The position numbers and the translations under genes are program-made. 64,000 nucleotides of DNA, from NCBI GenBank assembly GCA_922989275.2, contig OV277870.1:59917079-59981078 (forward strand). The letters are read 5' to 3'. Positions 9,748 to 57,840 of this stretch are shown here, piece after piece (within the stretch, counting starts at the first letter, position 1; every line of letters starts with the position of its first letter). The notes under the pieces were generated by a model. It made no database searches. It saw nothing but the letters and a program-made list of their open reading frames with translations, and was not told the origin of the DNA. This DNA comes from Gari tellinella (taxonomy: Eukaryota; Mollusca; Bivalvia; Cardiida; Psammobiidae).

Positions 9748-9775
9748 TCCGTCCGTCAGTTCACAATTGTTCGTT

Positions 9776-10640
9776 AACACTCTAGCAGGTTCAAATCTCA
9801 TTGGATCATGATGAAACTTGGTCAGAATGTTTGCCTCAATAAAATCTAGGTCAAGTTCGAATGTGGGTCATGTCCGGTCAAAAACTAGGTCACTAGGTCA
9901 AATTATCGAAAAACCTTGTTAACACTCTAGAGGCTACAAATTTCATTGGATCTTCATGAAACTTCATCAATATGATTGCCTCAATGAAATCTAGGCCAAG
10001 TTCGAATGTGGGTCATGTCCGGTCAAAAACTAGGTCACTAGGTCAAATCTTCGAAAAACCTTGTTAACACTCTAGAGACTACAAATTTCATTGGATCTTC
10101 ATGAAACTTCATCAAAATGTTTGCCTTAATGAAATCTAGCTCAAGTTCGAATGTGGGTCATGTCCGGTCAAAAACTAGGTCACTGGGTCAAATTATCGAA
10201 AAACCTTGTATACACTCTAGAGGCTACAAATTTCATTGGATCTTCATAAAACTTCATCAATATGATTGCCTCAATGAAATCTAGGCCAAGTTCGAATGTG
10301 GGTCATGTCCGGTCAAAAACTAGGTCACTAGGTCAAATCTTCGAAAAACCTTGTTTACACTCTAGAGACTACAAATTTCATTTGATCTTCATAAAACTTG
10401 ATGAAAAGGTTTGCCTCAATGAAATATAGGTCAAGTACAAATGTGGCTTATGTCTTGTCAAAAACTAGGTCACTAGGTCAAATCATCCAAAAACCTCGTT
10501 AACACTCTAGAGACTACAAAGTTCATTGAATGTATATCATGAAACTTGAACAAAATGTTTGTCTCATTGAAATCGAGGACAAGTTAGAATGAGGGTCATG
10601 CCCGGTTAAAAACTAGGTCACACGGTGTACATGGTTACAT
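9776..10640 (+). repeat. 145-bp tandem array, about six units
   Basis: The A/TACACTCTAG marker recurs at 9776, 9921, 10066, 10211, 10356 and 10501, exactly 145 bp apart. Units carry GGTCACTAGGTCAAA. This is the internal tandem domain of G3. Confidence 0.9.
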
Positions 10641-15561: not shown

Positions 15562-16517
15562 CCAAAGTGAAAAAATAAGGAAATCTTAAAAAATCTTCTT
15601 GTCTGAAACCACAAGAGCCAGAGCTTAGATATTTGGCACATAGCATCATCTATAGGTCCTCTATCAAAGTTGTTCAAATTTTGCCCCTGGGGTTAAAATT
15701 GGCCCCGCCCCGGGGGTCACCATTTTACATAGAGTTATATAGTGAAATGTTCAAACATCTTTTTCTCTGAAACCAATATGACCAGAGCTTTGATATTTGG
15801 CATGGTATAACTTCTAGAGGTATTTGACATATATTGTTGAATTGGTTCCGGTCCGTTGCATATCTGGGTCACCGGAGCTAAAAATAGATTTTTTTACCAT
15901 GAGAACTTAAAAAATCTTCTTGTCTGAAACCATAGTACACTAAGCTTAGATATTTTGCACATAGCATCGTCTACAGATCCTCTATCAAATTTGTTCAAAT
16001 TTTGTCCCTGGGGTCAAAATTGGCCCACCCCGGGGATCACAGTTTTACATAGAGTTATTTAGTGAAATGTTCAAACATCTTTTTCTCTGGAACCAATATG
16101 ACCAGAGCTTTGATATTTGGCATGGTATAACTTCTAGAAGTCCTTCACATATATTGTTGAATTGGTTCCGGTCCGTTGCATATCTGGGTCACCGGAGCTA
16201 AAAATAGATTTTTTCAATGAAAACTTAAAAAATCTTCTTGTCTGAAACCATAGTACACTGAGTTTAGATATTTTGCACATAGCATATTCTACAGGCCCTC
16301 TATCAAAGTTGTTCAAATTTTGTCCCTGGGGTCAAAATTGGCCCCGCCCCGGAGGTCACCGTTTTACATAGAGTTACATAGGGAAATGGTCAAACATCTT
16401 TTACTCAGAAACCAATATGGCCAGAGCTTTGATATTTGGCATGATGTAACTTTTAGAGGTCCTTCACATATATTGATGAATTGGTTCTGGTCTGTTGCAT
16501 ATCTGGGTCACCGAAGC
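15562..16517 (+). repeat. About 320-bp tandem units of G5
   Basis: The AAAAATAGATTTTTT marker occurs near 15880 and 16200, and resumes after K at 17465. Each unit has GGGGTCAAAATTGGCCC and ATCTGGGTCACCGGAGC. Confidence 0.8.
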
Positions 16518-16521
16518 TTAA

Positions 16522-17463: not shown

Positions 17464-17992
17464 TTAAAATAGATTTTTTCCAATGAAAACTTCAAAAATC
17501 TTTTTGTCTGAAACCATAGTACACTGAGTTTAGATATTTTTCACATATCATCGTCTACAGGTCCTCTATCTTAGTTGTTCAAATTTTGCCCCTAGGGTCA
17601 AAATTCGCCCCGCCCTGGGGGTCACCTTTTACAAATCTTCTTTTCTGAAATCACGCAACCCATCCTAGTGTCACCATGGTCAGGTGAGCGATCAAGGGCC
17701 ATTCTGGCCCTCTTGTTTTTAACAAATCGTCCGATTTTAGTGACTAGTCAATCCATAACGCAGTGATCAAAGGACAGGCTATGTTTAGTCACGTAATAAT
17801 GAATAATATCAGATGCGAGTATAGTCATGTGACAGCTAAATTTGTGAGGATTATAGCCTATATGACAGATGGCAGCTTAACAAAGGACAACACACCCTGT
17901 CGACTTATTAGGCAGCTCTTTTAGAGCTACTACGATTTAGATGAGAGGCCATTTCCGGGCGTTGATAGAGGCCACAAAAAACATGGCAGAAC

Positions 17993-18047
17993 GGTGAGTC
18001 AGGTTTCGATTTTGCTTCAAAACAGTATTTTTTCTGCTTTTTTCTAG
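17993..18047 (+). other. Candidate 55-bp intron in the N left arm
   Basis: GTGAGT donor after ATGGCAGAACG, polypyrimidine tract TTTTTTCTGCTTTTTT, CTAG acceptor. It reads inward. Mirrored in the right arm at 20509-20562 on the minus strand. Confidence 0.4.
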
Positions 18048-18475
18048 AAATCGGGGAATGTAGTTCCACGTAAAAATGTCCACTTGATGAATCAGTTATC
18101 ATCGTATGCTCCATTATTGCGATGTGGCGCCCCAATTTCATTCGGCGCAAACGTAACACGATCATTTTCAAACCGAAAGTGGTCAAAACATCAACATTTA
18201 TGTACAAAATGTGCAATGCACGAATTTATTCTGCATCTAACGCAGCTTTAAGATGCACACAGAAATCGGGGAATGTAGTTCCACGTAAAAATGTCCACTT
18301 GATGAATCAGTTATCATCGTATGCTCCATTATTGCGATGTGGCGCCCCAATTTCATTCGGCGCAAACGTAACACGATCATTTTCAAACCGAAAGTGGTCA
18401 AAACATCAACATTTATGTACAAAATGTGCAATGCACGAATTTATTCTGCATCTAACGCAGCTTTAAGATGCACAC
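18046..18475 (+). repeat. Exact 215-bp tandem duplication in the N left arm
   Basis: Units 18046-18260 and 18261-18475 appear identical. The right arm has a single copy, so the duplication is recent. It begins at the candidate splice acceptor AG. Confidence 0.9.
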
Positions 18476-19352
18476 GAACACTATTGGCTGTTTGGTATAC
18501 TTTATGTGAATCGGAACACGCAACATTGAATATTATGGGCTAATTTTCTAAAAGAGGTGTCTTCGAGGCTATTAGGTGCCTGATAGGAGCCGAGCAACCT
18601 ACTAAGAGGAGGGTTACTGTTGAACAGATTTAGGACTGATATTGTCAAAAATTGCTATATTTCATCGAAATGATTTGAAGTGAGGTGCCAATGAATAATA
18701 CGGCTTTATATAATCTTAATTCAAACTTTAAATGCAATGAAACGGATATAAAGAGGTCTGATTGTTAGCAAATTGGAACATGAACAATTTTCTGATTAGC
18801 AAAATGAAACTTTTACACAAAAAATAGAATCAACAACCCTTCCACGGCTCAAAAATCAAGCACTTAAAACGTTACATATAGTTATTATAGCTTACGTCAA
18901 GAGGAAGGGACTTTTGTCGCAACGAGTTGTATTTGGGAGGTTAACAAACCACGGAATTTCACGGACTCACGTATCTCGGAAATCTAAATAAAACATGAAA
19001 AAAAACACAACCGGAAATCTATTTTTAGAATTAACAAACCACGGAAATATGTTCGGAAATTTAAAAAATAAAACACCTGGAAATCTGATCGGAAATTGAC
19101 GTCGCGTTATTATGACAATCGCCTCTATCGATACCAGACGTTGATCATTTATTTTTAAACCACCAATGTAACAAGGTGGTACCTTTTGAAAGCGTGATCA
19201 CCTATGTCATGTATTCAAAATCAGTATATGACGTAGTTTCCGCATTCTAGAGTGAAAAGGTATCCGCCTTATACACAAACCCACATCATCGGACTGATTT
19301 TACATGCAGAATGTAGGTTGCGGTTTAGATTAGCGTAATGCCTTGTTAAGCT

Positions 19353-19577
19353 TTAATAAATGTCAATATTTAAAATGTCTTTGTATTCTGTTCGAAAACT
19401 ATCATCTGAGCTATCGTTCATATCTATGTCACAAAATGAGTCCTCAGAATACAGATATGTGTCACCGTCTAAACAAGTTGGAAGTGTTTGTTTCTCTGGA
19501 ATCGCCGTTAGGTGACTGTTTGTTGGTATGTCTGCAGTCTTGTCAAATAACATTCTTCTTGTTTTTGAGTTATTTGT
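19353..19577 (-). pseudogene. Acidic frame inside N, possible transposase remnant
   Basis: A minus-strand frame, open upstream of its ATG to about 19577, rich in D, E and S (YSEDSFCDIDMNDSSDD). No domain recognised. It could be a downstream exon of the candidate gene at 19641-19825, but the splice phase I tried does not fit. Confidence 0.2.
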
Positions 19578-19640
19578 GCTGGAATCAATTTAGATATTTG
19601 GGACAAAAATCGAACACTCTTTCAATCTGGTGAGTATTTA

Positions 19641-19825
19641 CTGGCACTTCTGATATCTTGAATTGTCCTTTTAATCTTCGCTGCTGGGGTACTACTTAGT
19701 GGAATATTTGATTTAGAATATGAGTATTTGATTTGAGCGTTGTAGCTGTGTCTATGATGTGCATATCCATGTTTCTTCTTCGCCAGGAACAGGCATTTTC
19801 TTCTAATACCACGAAACACACCCAT
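19641..19825 (-). pseudogene. Candidate basic N-terminal exon inside N
   Basis: On the minus strand a strong acceptor (TTTTCCTTTCGTTTCAG) directly precedes ATG; the frame begins MGVFRGIRRKCLFLAKKKHG and is K/R-rich, like a nuclear-localising N terminus. A GTAAAT donor lies at about 19640. Catalytic parts are absent, so N seems a deletion derivative. Function not established. Confidence 0.3.
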
Positions 19826-20508
19826 CTGAAACGAAAGGAAAATGAAAGTGGTCTACTGCGTCTATGACATTTTTCATGGATTGTTAGTCATTTATGTATT
19901 TGAGAAGTTGTTGAATCCCACTTGTGTACAAAAAAGTACATATTTAAAGTATAGTTTCCATCTATTTGCTAATTAGAAAATTGTTCATGTTTAAATTTTC
20001 TAACAATCATACCTCTTTATATCCGTTTCATTGCATTTAAAGCTTGATATAAGATTATATAAAGCCGTATTATTCCTTGGAACCTCACTTGAAATCATGT
20101 CAGGTCATGATTTCGATGAAATATAGCAAGTTTTGACAATATCAGTCCTAAATCTGTTCAACAGAAACCCTCCTCTTAGTAGGTTGCTCGGCTCCTATCA
20201 GGCACCTCATAGCCTCGAAGGCACCTCTTTTAGAAAATTAGCCCATAATATTCAATGTTGCGTGTTCCGATTCACATAAAGTATACCAAACAGTCAATAG
20301 TGTTCGTGTCTGCGTTAGATACATGATAAATTCGTGCATTGCACTTTTATGTACCTAAATGTTGGTGTTTTGACCACTTTCGGTTTGAAAATGATCGTGT
20401 TACGTTTGCGCCGAATGAAATTGGGGCGCCACATCGCAATAATGGAGCATACGATGATAACTAATTCATCAAGTCGACATTTTTACGTGGAACTACATTC
20501 CCCGATTT

Positions 20509-20562
20509 CTAGAAAAAAGCAGAAAAAATACTGTTTTGAAGCAAAATCGAAACTTGACTCAC
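20509..20562 (-). other. Candidate intron in the N right arm
   Basis: Mirror of 17993-18047: GTGAGT donor after ATGGCAGAAAG and a CTAG acceptor on the minus strand. Conserved in both arms. Confidence 0.4.
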
Positions 20563-20950
20563 CTTTCTGCCATGTTTTTTGTGGCCTCTATCAACGCCCG
20601 GAAATGGCCTCTCAACTAAATCGTAGTAGCTCTAAAAGAGCTGCCTAATAAGTCGACAGGGTGTGACAAAGGTAATGCTAAAAGATAGATCCTAAAGGAG
20701 CTTTTATGCATTACTTTTGTTATGCATTAAACAGCCACTTGCCTTTAAAGATCTACAGGCTACCGTATTCAATGGTCCCTTATTACAGGTTTGACTTAAG
20801 GTATCATTTAGAGCTGACGGCATTTTAAAGTTGAACTCAAGGGAGGTTACTCGTTTTGTGTTAACATTTTGCCAGAATTTCAGGAAATCATGTATAAAAT
20901 GCAAATTCCACTGTAGATTTTCATTAAATTTTTGTGACTAGTAGAAATAA

Positions 20951-21180
20951 ACAGAAGATCAAGCCTGTTTCTAAAATGAAGGAACAATTCTAAAGAAGAG
21001 TTGGTCCAGAAATCTACTTATAAATATACAGAGAAATAAGAAGATTTGAGAAGCAACTAGAAGAGGTCTAAACAGAAGATCAAGCCTGTTTCTAAAATGA
21101 AGGAACAATTCTAAAGAAGATTTGGTCCACAAATCTACTTATAAATATACAGAGAAACAAGAAGATTTGAGAAGCAACTC
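20951..21180 (+). repeat. 121-bp tandem pair in the ribozyme element
   Basis: ACAGAAGATCAAGCCTG begins at 20951 and again at 21072; about 110 bp match closely (GGAACAATTCTAAAGAAGA, ATACAGAGAAA). Confidence 0.9.
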
Positions 21181-21266
21181 CAGTCAAGGTCAATTGCTAA
21201 GTATGGATAAGATAGGACATGCTTAGGACTGCAAAACAGCAGCCATAGCAACAGATGACATCATGA

Positions 21267-21274
21267 TGACGTCA
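21267..21274. promoter_or_regulatory. CRE-like site TGACGTCA
   Basis: Perfect cAMP-response-element palindrome, 27 bp before a second one, in a run of GATGACATCA-like repeats upstream of the TATA box. Confidence 0.55.
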
Positions 21275-21293
21275 TGACATCAACTCGACGTTG

Positions 21294-21301
21294 TGACGTC
21301 A
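21294..21301. promoter_or_regulatory. Second CRE-like site TGACGTCA
   Basis: Perfect palindrome 122 bp upstream of the TATA box. Pairing with the first site suggests a bZIP-responsive element promoter (inference). Confidence 0.55.
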
Positions 21302-21422
21302 TGATGTTGAAACCACATCAACCGATGACATCATAATGACTGTCATCATCAAAAGCTGTGTAAATAACACATGCTTAGAAACCATGATGCCAAACAAAGG
21401 TCACATGGTAGCAACCCTCAGG

Positions 21423-21430
21423 TATAAAAG
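21423..21430 (+). promoter_or_regulatory. TATA box TATAAAAG
   Basis: Canonical TATA element; initiation 25-30 bp downstream would fall just before or at the hammerhead 5' strand (21448). Confidence 0.55.
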
Positions 21431-21447
21431 TGAGATGCCACAATGGG

Positions 21448-21502
21448 ACATCTCATTCATTCTGATGAGTCCAAACAAGGACGAAACTAGTCAATGATAT
21501 GT
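21448..21502 (+). ncRNA. Type I hammerhead ribozyme, minimal stem III
   Basis: Core CTGATGA (21462-21468), stem II GTCC/GGAC (21469-21472 with 21479-21482, loop AAACAA), GAAA (21483-21486), stem III AC-TA-GT (21486-21491), cleavage C at 21492. Stem I pairs TCATT (21457-21461) with AATGA (21493-21497), then an asymmetric internal loop and ACAT/ATGT (21448-21451 with 21499-21502). All conserved core bases are present. Confidence 0.85.
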
Positions 21503-21571
21503 GACACCAAAGTAACATTCCAGCTGGGTTTTCTCTTGTCAGTCTTCTATATTTTTGTATAGTAGAAATAA

Positions 21572-25424: not shown

Positions 25425-26859
25425 TTTTTAGCTCATCTGAGCACAAAGTGCTCAAGGTGAGCTTTTGTGGTCAGTTAATGTCCGTCGTCGTGCGTTGTGC
25501 GTCGTGCGTCAACAATTTCTTCAAACATCTTCTTCTCCAAAACCACTTGCCTGATTGCAACCAAACTTCACAGGAATGTTCCTTGGGTCAAGCTCTTTCA
25601 AAGTTGTTCAAAGAATTTGAAACCATGCAGAACTCTGGTTGCTATGGCAACCAAAGTGAAAAAATAAGGAAATTTTAAAAAATCTTCTTGTCACAAACCA
25701 CAAGAGCCAGAGCTTAGATATTTGGCACATGTCATTACCTATAGGTCTTCTATCAAAGTTGTTCAAATTTTGCCCCTGGGGTCAAAATTGGCCCCGCCCC
25801 GGGGGTCAACGTTTTACATAGAGTTATATAGTGAAATGTTCAAACATCTTTTTCTCTGAAACCAATATGTCCAGAGCTTTGATATTTAGCATGGTATAAC
25901 TTCTAGAAGTCCTTCACACATATTGTTGAATTGGTTCGGGTCCGTTGCATATCTGGGTCACCGGAGCTAAAAATAGATTTTTTTCCATGAGAACTTAAAA
26001 AATCTTCTTGTCTGAAACCATAGTACACTGAGCTTAGATATTTTGCACATAGCATCGTCTACAGGTCCTCTATCTTAGTTGTTCAAATTTTGCCCCTGGG
26101 GTCAAAATTGGCCCCGCCCCGGGGATCACAGTTTTACATAGAGTTATATAGTGAAATGTTCAAACATCTTTTTCTCTGGAACCAATATGACCAGAGCTTT
26201 GATATTTGACATGGTATAACTTCTAGAAGTCCTTCACACATATTGTTGAATTGGTTATGGTCTGTTGCATATCTGGGTCACAGGAGCTAAAAATAGATTT
26301 TTTCAATGAAAACTTCAAAAATCTTCTTTTCTGAAACCATAGTACACTGAGTTTAGATATTTTGTACATAGCATCGTCTACAGGCCCTCTATCAAAGTTG
26401 TTCAAATTTTGTCCCTGGGGTCAAAATTGGTCCCGCCCCGGAGGTCACCGTTTTACGTAGGGTTACATAGGAAAATGTTCAAACATCTTTTACTCAGAAA
26501 CCAATATGGCCAGAGCTTTGATATTTGGCATGATGTAACTGTTAGAGGTCTTTCACATATATGGATGAATTGGTATTGGTCTGTTGCATATCTGGGTCAC
26601 CGGAGGTAAAAATAGATTTTTTCAATGAAAACTTCAAAAATCTTCTTGTCTGAAACCATAGTACACTGAGTTTAGATATTTTGCACATATCATCGTTTAC
26701 AGGTCCTCTATCTTAGTTGTTCAAATTTTGCCCCTGGGGTCAAAATTGGCCCCGCCCTGGGGGTCACCTTTTACAAATCTTCTTTTCTGAAATCACGTGA
26801 CCCATCCTAGTGTCACCATGGTCAGGTGAGCGATCAAGGGCCATTCTGGCCCTCTTGTT
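25425..26859 (+). mobile_element. G6, Helentron-like element
   Basis: TTTTTAGCTCATCTGAGCAC start and GGTCAGGTGAGCGATCAA, hairpin GGGCCATTCTGGCCC, TCTTGTTT end. It contains the same roughly 320-bp units as G5 but without K, which confirms K as an insertion there. Confidence 0.75.
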
Positions 26860-39017: not shown

Positions 39018-39700
39018 CTGGCTCAAATTACTTGCCCTGACTGATACTACTTGCACTGACTCAATGGATTAAAGAGTTGCTTGCCCTGTCTCAAGTTACT
39101 TGTCCCAGACTGATAATACTTGCCCTGACTCAAGAAATTAAAGAGTTACTTGCCCAGTCTCAAATTACTTGCCTTGACTGAAACTACTTGCACTGACTCA
39201 ATAAAGTAAAGAGTTACTTGCCCAGTCTCAAGTTACTTGCCCAATTAAGGAGTTACTTGCCCAGTCTCAAGTCACTTGCTCTGACTGATACTACTTGCCC
39301 TGACTCAATGAATTAAATAGTTACTTGCCCTGTCTCAAGTTACTTGTCCCAGACTGATACTACTTGCCCTGACTCAATAAATTAAAGAGTTACTTGCCCA
39401 GTCTCAAGTTACTTGCCCTGACTGAAACTACTTGCCATGACTCAATAAATTAAAGAGTTACTTGCCCAGTATCAAGTTACTTGCCCTGACTGATACTACT
39501 TGCCCTGACTCAATGAATTAAAGAGTTGCTTGCCCTGTCTCAAGTTACTTGTCCCAGACTGAAACTACTTGCCCTGACTCAATAAATTAAAGAGTAACTT
39601 GCCCAGTCTCAAGTTACTTGCCCTGACTGATACTACTTGCCCTGACTCAATAAATTAAAGAGGTGCTTGCCCAGTCTCAAGTTACCTGTACCAGACAGTA
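39018..39700 (+). repeat. 68-bp minisatellite, about ten units
   Basis: Unit of the form GAGTTACTTGCCCAGTCTCA..GACTGATACTACTTGCC..GACTCAATAAATTAAA, 68-69 bp, with TACTTGCC sub-repeats. One unit near 39240 is shortened. Non-coding. Confidence 0.9.
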
Positions 39701-53594: not shown

Positions 53595-53822
53595 ATTAAC
53601 CCTTTCTAGACTGAATCTCTCATATGGACAAATCCACTTTTATAAATTGATCAGTTCAATATGTCAATTTTAAGGGCCATTCTTAGAAAGTATTTCAGAA
53701 AAAATAAAGTAAAACAAAAAGTGGAGACCCTGATCAGAGCGCTCCTTAAAGGAGCCCTCTGATCAGGGTCTACACTGTTTGCAAAATATACATAAACTGT
53801 TGTCCAACATTTAAAGGGTTAA
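53595..53822. mobile_element. Family C MITE
   Basis: TTAACCCTTTCTAGACTGAA to CATTTAAAGGGTTAA; hairpin 53712-53782, left outer arm mutated (AAAAAGTGGAGACCC), tip GCGCTCCTTAAAGGAGCC. Confidence 0.75.
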
Positions 53823-56741: not shown

Positions 56742-56781
56742 GTTAAGTTTTTTGCTTAAGGTTTTTGTAAGAGTTGATTTC

Positions 56782-57840
56782 TCAATAACTATCAAAGGTA
56801 TCCATTTGAAACTTGGAATAGTTGTTCAGTATCAAAAGGGCAATTCATTACAACAAGGCAGGTAACCCTGGGATTTGTCATTTCAGAGTTATTGCCCTTG
56901 TTTTATTTACTTAAAAATTATAAATTAACATATCTCAATAACTAGCAAAGGTATCCATTTGAAACTTGGAATAGTTGTTCAGTATCAAAAGGGCAACTCA
57001 TTACAACAAGGCAGGTAACCCTGGGATTTGTCATTTCAGAGTTATTGCCCTTGTTTTATTTACTTAAAAATTATAAATTAACATATCTCAATAACTATAA
57101 AAGATATCCATTTGAAACTTTGAATACTTGTTCAGTATCAAAAGGGCAACTCATTACAATAAGGCAGGTAACCCTGGGAGTTGTCATTTCAGAGTTATTG
57201 CCCTTGTTTTATTTACTTAAAAATTGTAAATTAACATATCTAAATAGCTATGAAAGATATTAACTTGAAACTGGGAATAGTTATTGAGTATCAAAAGGGC
57301 AACTAATTACATTAAGGCAGGTAACTCTGGGATTTGTCAGTTCAGAGTTATTGCCCTTTTTTATTTACTTCAAAATTGTAAATTAACATATCTAAATAAC
57401 TATGAAAGATATTAACTTGAAACTTTAAATAGTTATTCAGTATCAGAAGGGCAACTCATTACAACAAGACAGGTAACCCTGAGGTTTGTGTATCCAGAGT
57501 TATTGCCCTTGTTTTATTTACTTAAAAGTTATAAATTAACATATCTAAATAGCTATGGAAGATATTAACTTGAAACTTTGAATACTTGTTAAGTATCAAA
57601 AGGACAAGTCATTACAACAAGGTAGGTTACTCTATGATTTTTTAATTCCAGAGTAATTGCCCTTGATTTATTTACTTAAAACTTGTAAATTAAAATATCT
57701 TAATAACGCTCAAAGGTATTAACTTGAAACTTTAAATACTTGTGTTATATCAAAAGGGCAACTCATTCAAACAAGAAAGGTGATTCGGATGTGCCGTTCC
57801 AGAGTTACTGTCCTTGTTTTGACTCATAGTTTACTTTAAA
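56782..57840 (+). repeat. 153-bp tandem units of element I
   Basis: Markers at 56782, 56935, 57088, 57241, 57393, 57546 and 57700. Each unit has GTATCAAAAGGGCAACTCAT and AGAGTTATTGCCCTTG. Confidence 0.9.

Follow-up and report, generated by a model that had tools for sequence, protein, structure and literature searches.

The window, by which we mean the whole 64-kb stretch of DNA analyzed, carries on its forward strand a 609-bp insert bounded on both sides by exact copies of TAGTAGAAATAA (Table 1). Direct reading confirmed each feature that a first-pass annotation had placed there, namely the 12-bp repeats, the 121-bp tandem pair, two CREs, a TATA box, and a complete type I hammerhead core with its stem I pairing. 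The insert has a G+C content of 37%, and the longest open stretch touching it is 66 codons; coding sequence of a Penelope-like element (PLE) is absent.

Table 1. Features of the 609-bp insert and its boundaries, in window coordinates
Feature	Position	Strand	Basis or remark
Left 12-bp direct repeat TAGTAGAAATAA	20939..20950	.	Likely target-site duplication; read directly, control placements run
Insertion, 609 bp, likely solo pLTR-type unit	20951..21559	+	Direct-repeat boundaries
Tandem pair, unit 1 (121 bp)	20951..21071	+	Self-comparison
Tandem pair, unit 2	21072..21179	+	Identity stops at 21179
Five TGACRTCA sites	21256..21333	+	At 21256, 21267, 21275, 21294, and 21326
TATA box TATAAAAG	21423..21430	+	Motif scan, direct read
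Initiator-like TCATTC	21453..21458	+	Predicted start A21455, 32 bases after the first T of TATA
Minimal type I hammerhead	21457..21497	+	Rfam match, strict motif scan, direct read
Hammerhead stem I	21457-21461/21493-21497	+	TCATT/AATGA
Hammerhead core CTGATGA	21462-21468	+
Hammerhead stem II	21469-21472/21479-21482	+	GTCC/GGAC
GAAAC	21483-21487	+	GAA of the core at 21483-21485
ACTAGT palindrome (stem III)	21486..21491	+	6-bp duplex between two RNA copies in the two-strand minimum-energy structure
GTC of the cleavage site	ends at 21492	+	Predicted cut after C21492
67-base 3′ tail past the cut	21493..21559	+	Likely reverse-transcription start site, by comparison with PMC11167929 and PMC3846280
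Right 12-bp direct repeat TAGTAGAAATAA	21560..21571	.	Read directly

The 5′ end of the element is also the start of the 121-bp repeat unit. The two units of the tandem pair are spaced 121 bp apart and are 97% identical across 111 bp, and this identity runs three bases (TAA) into the flanking repeat, an overrun that fits microhomology at a truncated 5′ end. Twelve-base identity at the same geometry arose in 19 of 2,000 Markov pairs, as opposed to 174 of 2,000 placements within this repeat-rich window; given that so many placements reach 12 bases, the flanking repeat alone is modest evidence of insertion. No second copy of the element was found within the 64-kb window by blastn. Use of the 66-codon frame, which runs through the promoter and ribozyme, as a protein query for mispredicted proteins of other copies returned no candidate. 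Several alternative views of the boundaries and repeats were ruled out. The 121-bp pair does not carry the ribozyme, as motif and Rfam scans yielded no second hammerhead motif; the left flank is not the terminus of a tandem copy lying upstream, with just 26 bases aligning at 85%; and the element ends do not contain a circle-derived overlap, as no 11-mer is common to 20951-21242 and 21455-21571.

Promoter motifs ahead of a minimal hammerhead

Five of the seven forward-strand TGACRTCA sites in the window cluster in a 78-bp stretch upstream of the TATA box. Two of them, at 21267 and 21294, are the palindromic CRE TGACGTCA, and the cluster is one that we take to be a predicted CREB/ATF-type enhancer. 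The TATA box is separated by 22 bp from the TCATTC at 21453, presumably an initiator of the TCAKTY type. An overlapping second TCATTC at 21457 would move the start to 21459 and lengthen the spacing to 36, and the stricter initiator form YYANWYY fits this second copy only. With the start at A21455, transcription would begin two bases ahead of the first strand of stem I, and the initiator overlaps the stem by two bases. Promoter pairs were defined for scanning as TATA[AT]AA[GA] plus TCA[GT]T[CT], with the A of the latter 28-35 bases downstream of the first T in the former. Under this definition the window contains one pair on the forward strand, described here, and one on the reverse strand (TATA at 53644), with 0.47 expected across both strands; by these counts, the pairing of TATA with TCAKTY proves little when taken alone.

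The hammerhead possesses the invariant core, stems I and II, and the NUH cut site of the type I fold, from which self-cleavage is predicted. In the covariance search that had been proposed as a check, Rfam Hammerhead_1 scored 30.7 bits at 21456-21498 (E = 2.3e-5 when 1.1 kb was searched and 0.0013 for all 64 kb). The match falls under the family gathering score of 34, which is why a default Rfam scan of the whole window lists nothing. In the whole-window scan, hairpin repeats outscored the hammerhead in E-value against miRNA families, all of them under the cutoffs of those families; this result advises some caution on E-values in the window. A strict hammerhead motif has its sole locus here on either strand of the window and arose by chance at one locus in 1,000 second-order Markov windows. 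A laxer motif occurred at five loci in 60 first-order Markov windows, three of which had at least 12 paired positions, as seen here. Among viral contigs, the exact 26-base hammerhead core CTGATGAGTCCAAACAAGGACGAAAC was present at a single locus, on the minus strand of a 40.8-kb contig of the viral collection (L001, 5938-5963), where the match comprises the 26-base core only. The same core was absent from the genome contigs of the prokaryote collection, and no viral contig carried the core together with an ACTAGT stem III.

Pol II-type core promoter motifs do lie directly ahead of the hammerhead, in agreement with the first-pass annotation. Its further proposal that this promoter drives its own element is not supported. 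A transcript from 21455 would contain 105 element bases. With 504 of the 609 bases lying upstream of the predicted start, the promoter is unable to transcribe the element in which it sits; a solo copy would yield approximately 105 bases of its own, followed by flanking sequence.

Stem III and predicted pairing between RNA copies

Folding models do not allow a loop as short as 2 nt. In cis, stem III of this hammerhead could amount to at most 2 bp over such a loop, and as it consists of just the palindromic ACTAGT, the ribozyme likely needs two RNAs to act. The two-strand minimum-energy structure includes a 6-bp ACUAGU duplex and both copies of stem II, at -26.0 kcal/mol versus -22.6 kcal/mol for two separate monomers (2 x -11.3). 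The exact double-hammerhead conformation, at -17.6 kcal/mol, is less stable than both that minimum and the monomer pair. Dimer action is therefore inferred not on energetic grounds but because stem III is missing and other hammerheads are known to work as dimers. Passages of two reviews (PMC7761336, PMC6155905) describe PLE and amphibian hammerheads as dimer-acting, with helix III weak or missing, and assign minimal type I hammerheads without helix III to PLEs. Newt satellite and other dimer-acting hammerheads likewise combine a weak helix III with dimer action, the latter only predicted here; those of the newt sit in satellite arrays, whereas the present hammerhead sits in a solo insertion.

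Folded alone, the region 21440-21510 is no more stable than its shuffles (z = -0.38). In the minimum-energy fold of the predicted 105-nt transcript, which overall is no better than its shuffles (z = 0.07), the tail pairs with the ribozyme core, and this pairing may represent a blocked state of the ribozyme. In that fold, tail positions 21536-21542 pair with the whole of CUGAUGA. The tail itself folds no better than its shuffles (z = 0.64), and nothing in its predicted fold could be equated with the AC-rich stem-loop of the anole PLE. The tail also contains a weak open frame of 22 codons, which opens with an ATG at 21494, on the second base after the predicted cut, and runs precisely to the element end at 21559. 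The Pen2a pLTR of A. vaga plus its tail also holds 22 codons, an agreement that is likely due to chance.

Assignment among hammerhead-bearing retroelements

We judge it on balance probable that the insert is a stranded, 5′-truncated solo pLTR of a PLE, with transcripts predicted to begin at the edge of the ribozyme. A promoter located near the 3′ end would not serve a short element standing alone; it is expected of a tandem PLE array, where one unit would serve both as the RNA start of one element and as the 3′ end of the preceding one. Layout, rather than sequence homology, makes the PLE assignment the most likely one. In such an array, the CRE cluster is predicted to boost transcription from a start near A21455. 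Two of the resulting RNAs would pair via the ACTAGT palindrome and likely be cut after C21492, which would remove the cap and the first 38 nt. The PLE reverse transcriptase may then recognize the RNA past the hammerhead, start approximately 67 nt beyond the cut, and copy back through the ribozyme, promoter, and repeats. An early stop would leave a truncated copy between duplicated target bases. Once isolated, the unit would drive transcripts of flanking DNA instead of its own.

The connection to PLEs drawn by the first-pass annotation is borne out in layout, as published PLE pLTRs are similarly arranged and end shortly past the hammerhead, according to passages of PMC3846280 and PMC11167929. 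PLE pLTRs with minimal type I hammerheads, compared here through A. vaga Pen2a and the anole PLE (PAc), have in common with the insert a TATA box and initiator, a minimal hammerhead, and short terminal direct repeats; 5′ truncation and solo copies, as proposed here, are also known for them. Passages of PMC8969392 describe PLEs as becoming 5′-truncated upon insertion. Of the traits of a pLTR, a minimal type I hammerhead with a weak or missing helix III is present (ACTAGT, at most 2 bp in cis), and the TATA and initiator motifs lie at a spacing of 32 to A+1 in what is a predicted promoter. The 3′ end follows the hammerhead shortly, 91 nt on from where stem II starts. Where a short target-site duplication would lie there is an exact 12-bp repeat, but this length is also reached in the 174 of 2,000 window placements noted above. 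An autonomous PLE is defined by a single open reading frame encoding a telomerase-like reverse transcriptase and a GIY-YIG endonuclease; with 66 codons as the maximum here, this copy is not classed as one.

The details of these systems agree with the insert to differing degrees. In the Pen2a pLTR, as given in parts of PMC3846280, a putative TATA box precedes the initiator TCACT by 20 bp (22 bp here), the first 12 codons of the open reading frame are included (22 with the tail), and a tail of 31 bp may be present. A. vaga insertions have target-site duplications of 8, 9, or 10 bp, with some having none (the repeat here is 12 bp), and solo pLTRs occur, several of them lacking such duplications. 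The A. vaga pLTRs are quoted there at 181-218 bp, and the present insert, at 609 bp, is longer. PMC3846280 makes no mention of hammerhead ribozymes; a review, in the portion concerned, states that all available PLE sequences show them (PMC6155905). The open reading frame of PAc begins at stem II of the hammerhead, and reverse transcription starts 111-118 nt into it (PMC11167929). Genomic copies of the anole PLE end at the reverse-transcription start sites; in the present element the interval between the stem II start and the element end, 91 nt, comes near that distance but does not equal it. In the same study, hammerhead cleavage was dispensable for in vitro insertion and required an added protein (PMC11167929). 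The insert departs from both pLTRs in lacking an open reading frame, in its longer upstream part with the 121-bp pair and five TGACRTCA sites, and in having an initiator that overlaps stem I. Counted against the pLTR assignment are the missing coding sequence, the unusual pLTR length, the lack of a convincing tail stem-loop, the core-tail pairing, and the double-hammerhead conformation being the less stable one. On the same side stand the two TATA/TCAKTY pairs of the window, the frequency of 12-bp repeats among window placements, the A. vaga insertions and solo pLTRs lacking target-site duplications, and the dispensability of the anole hammerhead for insertion in vitro.

The main rival to the PLE pLTR is a dedicated short non-autonomous family, in which a 609-bp unit with fixed ends would use the PLE machinery and spread via tandem or read-through transcripts. 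Fixed ends would suit the exact 12-bp repeats at either boundary and the coincidence of the 5′ end with the start of the 121-bp unit, and passages of PMC3846280 hold that A. vaga pLTR sequences suffice to integrate unrelated DNA in trans. However, such a family has no second representative in the window by blastn, and its promoter, near the 3′ end, would be unable to transcribe the unit; we regard it as unlikely, though deserving of serious attention. Metazoan retrozymes offer a different origin. Passages of PMC7229834 describe them as type I hammerhead repeats in tandem units of 150-450 bp that yield circular RNA, and the insert might be a monomer remnant that passed through a circular RNA from such an array. 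The metazoan non-LTR retrozymes of mussel, coral, and axolotl share with the insert a type I hammerhead, short non-coding AT-rich DNA, and repeats resembling target-site duplications, and the 37% G+C and a flanking repeat of more than 4 bp are compatible with this origin. The Mediterranean mussel has about 5,000 type I hammerheads, usually in 350-390-bp repeats (PMC7229834, in part), and a weak helix III is common among the type I hammerheads that retrozymes carry (PMC7761336, in part). Against these similarities, the element and the entire window contain one hammerhead, the tandem pair contains none, and the 11-mer that a circle-derived overlap might leave is missing. The palindromic stem III and promoter motifs are further differences from these retrozymes, which seem to lack promoters according to the pertinent part of a review that also describes most invertebrate hammerheads as capable of a stable helix III (PMC7761336). 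We consider a retrozyme remnant distinctly improbable.

That a hammerhead-like sequence arose by chance in AT-rich repetitive DNA, alongside a chance direct repeat, is in our estimate highly improbable. The Rfam score below the cutoff, the native fold that is not stable, and the frequency of 12-bp repeats with the same geometry in the window (174 of 2,000) would all be in keeping with coincidence, but the strict motif appeared in just one of 1,000 simulated windows, and the hammerhead has a TATA box and five TGACRTCA sites ahead of it, spaced as in a promoter.

The initiator-ribozyme overlap and the surrounding DNA

A promoter joined to a hammerhead is no novelty as such: the combination is known in a plant retrozyme (PMC12029980, in part), and two separate papers imply it for the pLTRs of PLEs. 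Its description as unusual in the first-pass annotation is weakened by the putative TATA box and initiator of the A. vaga pLTR, the hammerheads reported for all available PLE sequences, and the plant retrozyme NbRZ1 (passages of PMC3846280, PMC6155905, and PMC12029980). The start site of NbRZ1 has been mapped, and its promoter, upstream of the hammerhead, is thought to be of the Pol II type; cleavage removes the 5′ portion of its RNA, which can then no longer be translated, as recounted in sections of PMC12029980. NbRZ1 shares with the insert the order of promoter and hammerhead, whereas removal of the 5′ part of the RNA is only predicted here and NbRZ1 is a plant LTR element. Plant retrozymes carry type III hammerheads and 4-bp target-site duplications (PMC7229834, in part). 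In keyword searches of an open-access library, we came upon no description of an initiator overlapping stem I combined with a ribozyme likely acting only as a pair.

The in vivo activity and role of minimal PLE hammerheads are called a mystery in a passage of one review (PMC7761336). A predicted start two bases ahead of stem I suggests a dose-dependent role at the 5′ end, either cap removal or provision of a defined 5′ end. A bolder proposal, and in our estimation a long shot, is that of a self-decapping promoter in a cAMP-responsive retroelement. As the initiator overlaps stem I, every transcript would be born with a 5′-terminal hammerhead, and as stem III forms solely between copies, the cap would be cut only when the RNAs are abundant or in tandem. 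If this is true, an RNA under the control of a CRE cluster would switch from capped messenger to uncapped template through its own concentration.

The surrounding window is rich in other repeats. Just left of the element, inverted repeats with 97% complementary arms (17891-18209/20347-20665 and 18472-18674/20107-20309) enclose approximately 2.8 kb, and by appearance the region 17891-20665 is a foldback-type transposon. A hairpin repeat, CTTAAAGCAGG...GCATTCTGCTTTACTTTC, is very abundant from about 640 to 63600, with as many as 41 copies to a family, and its copies overlap weak miRNA-family matches in Rfam. Satellite-like tandem arrays are located at 9773-10621 (145-bp period), 15580-16518 (320), 25678-26775 (319), 39022-39685 (68/137), and 56780-57775 (153). 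Pfam returned nothing for the six listed open reading frames of the window with at least 120 amino acids. One repeat-derived open reading frame of the window makes a bivalve host likely: it had 14 protein matches, two of which carry an organism name, in both cases Dreissena polymorpha, with 54% and 60% identity over at most half of the query.
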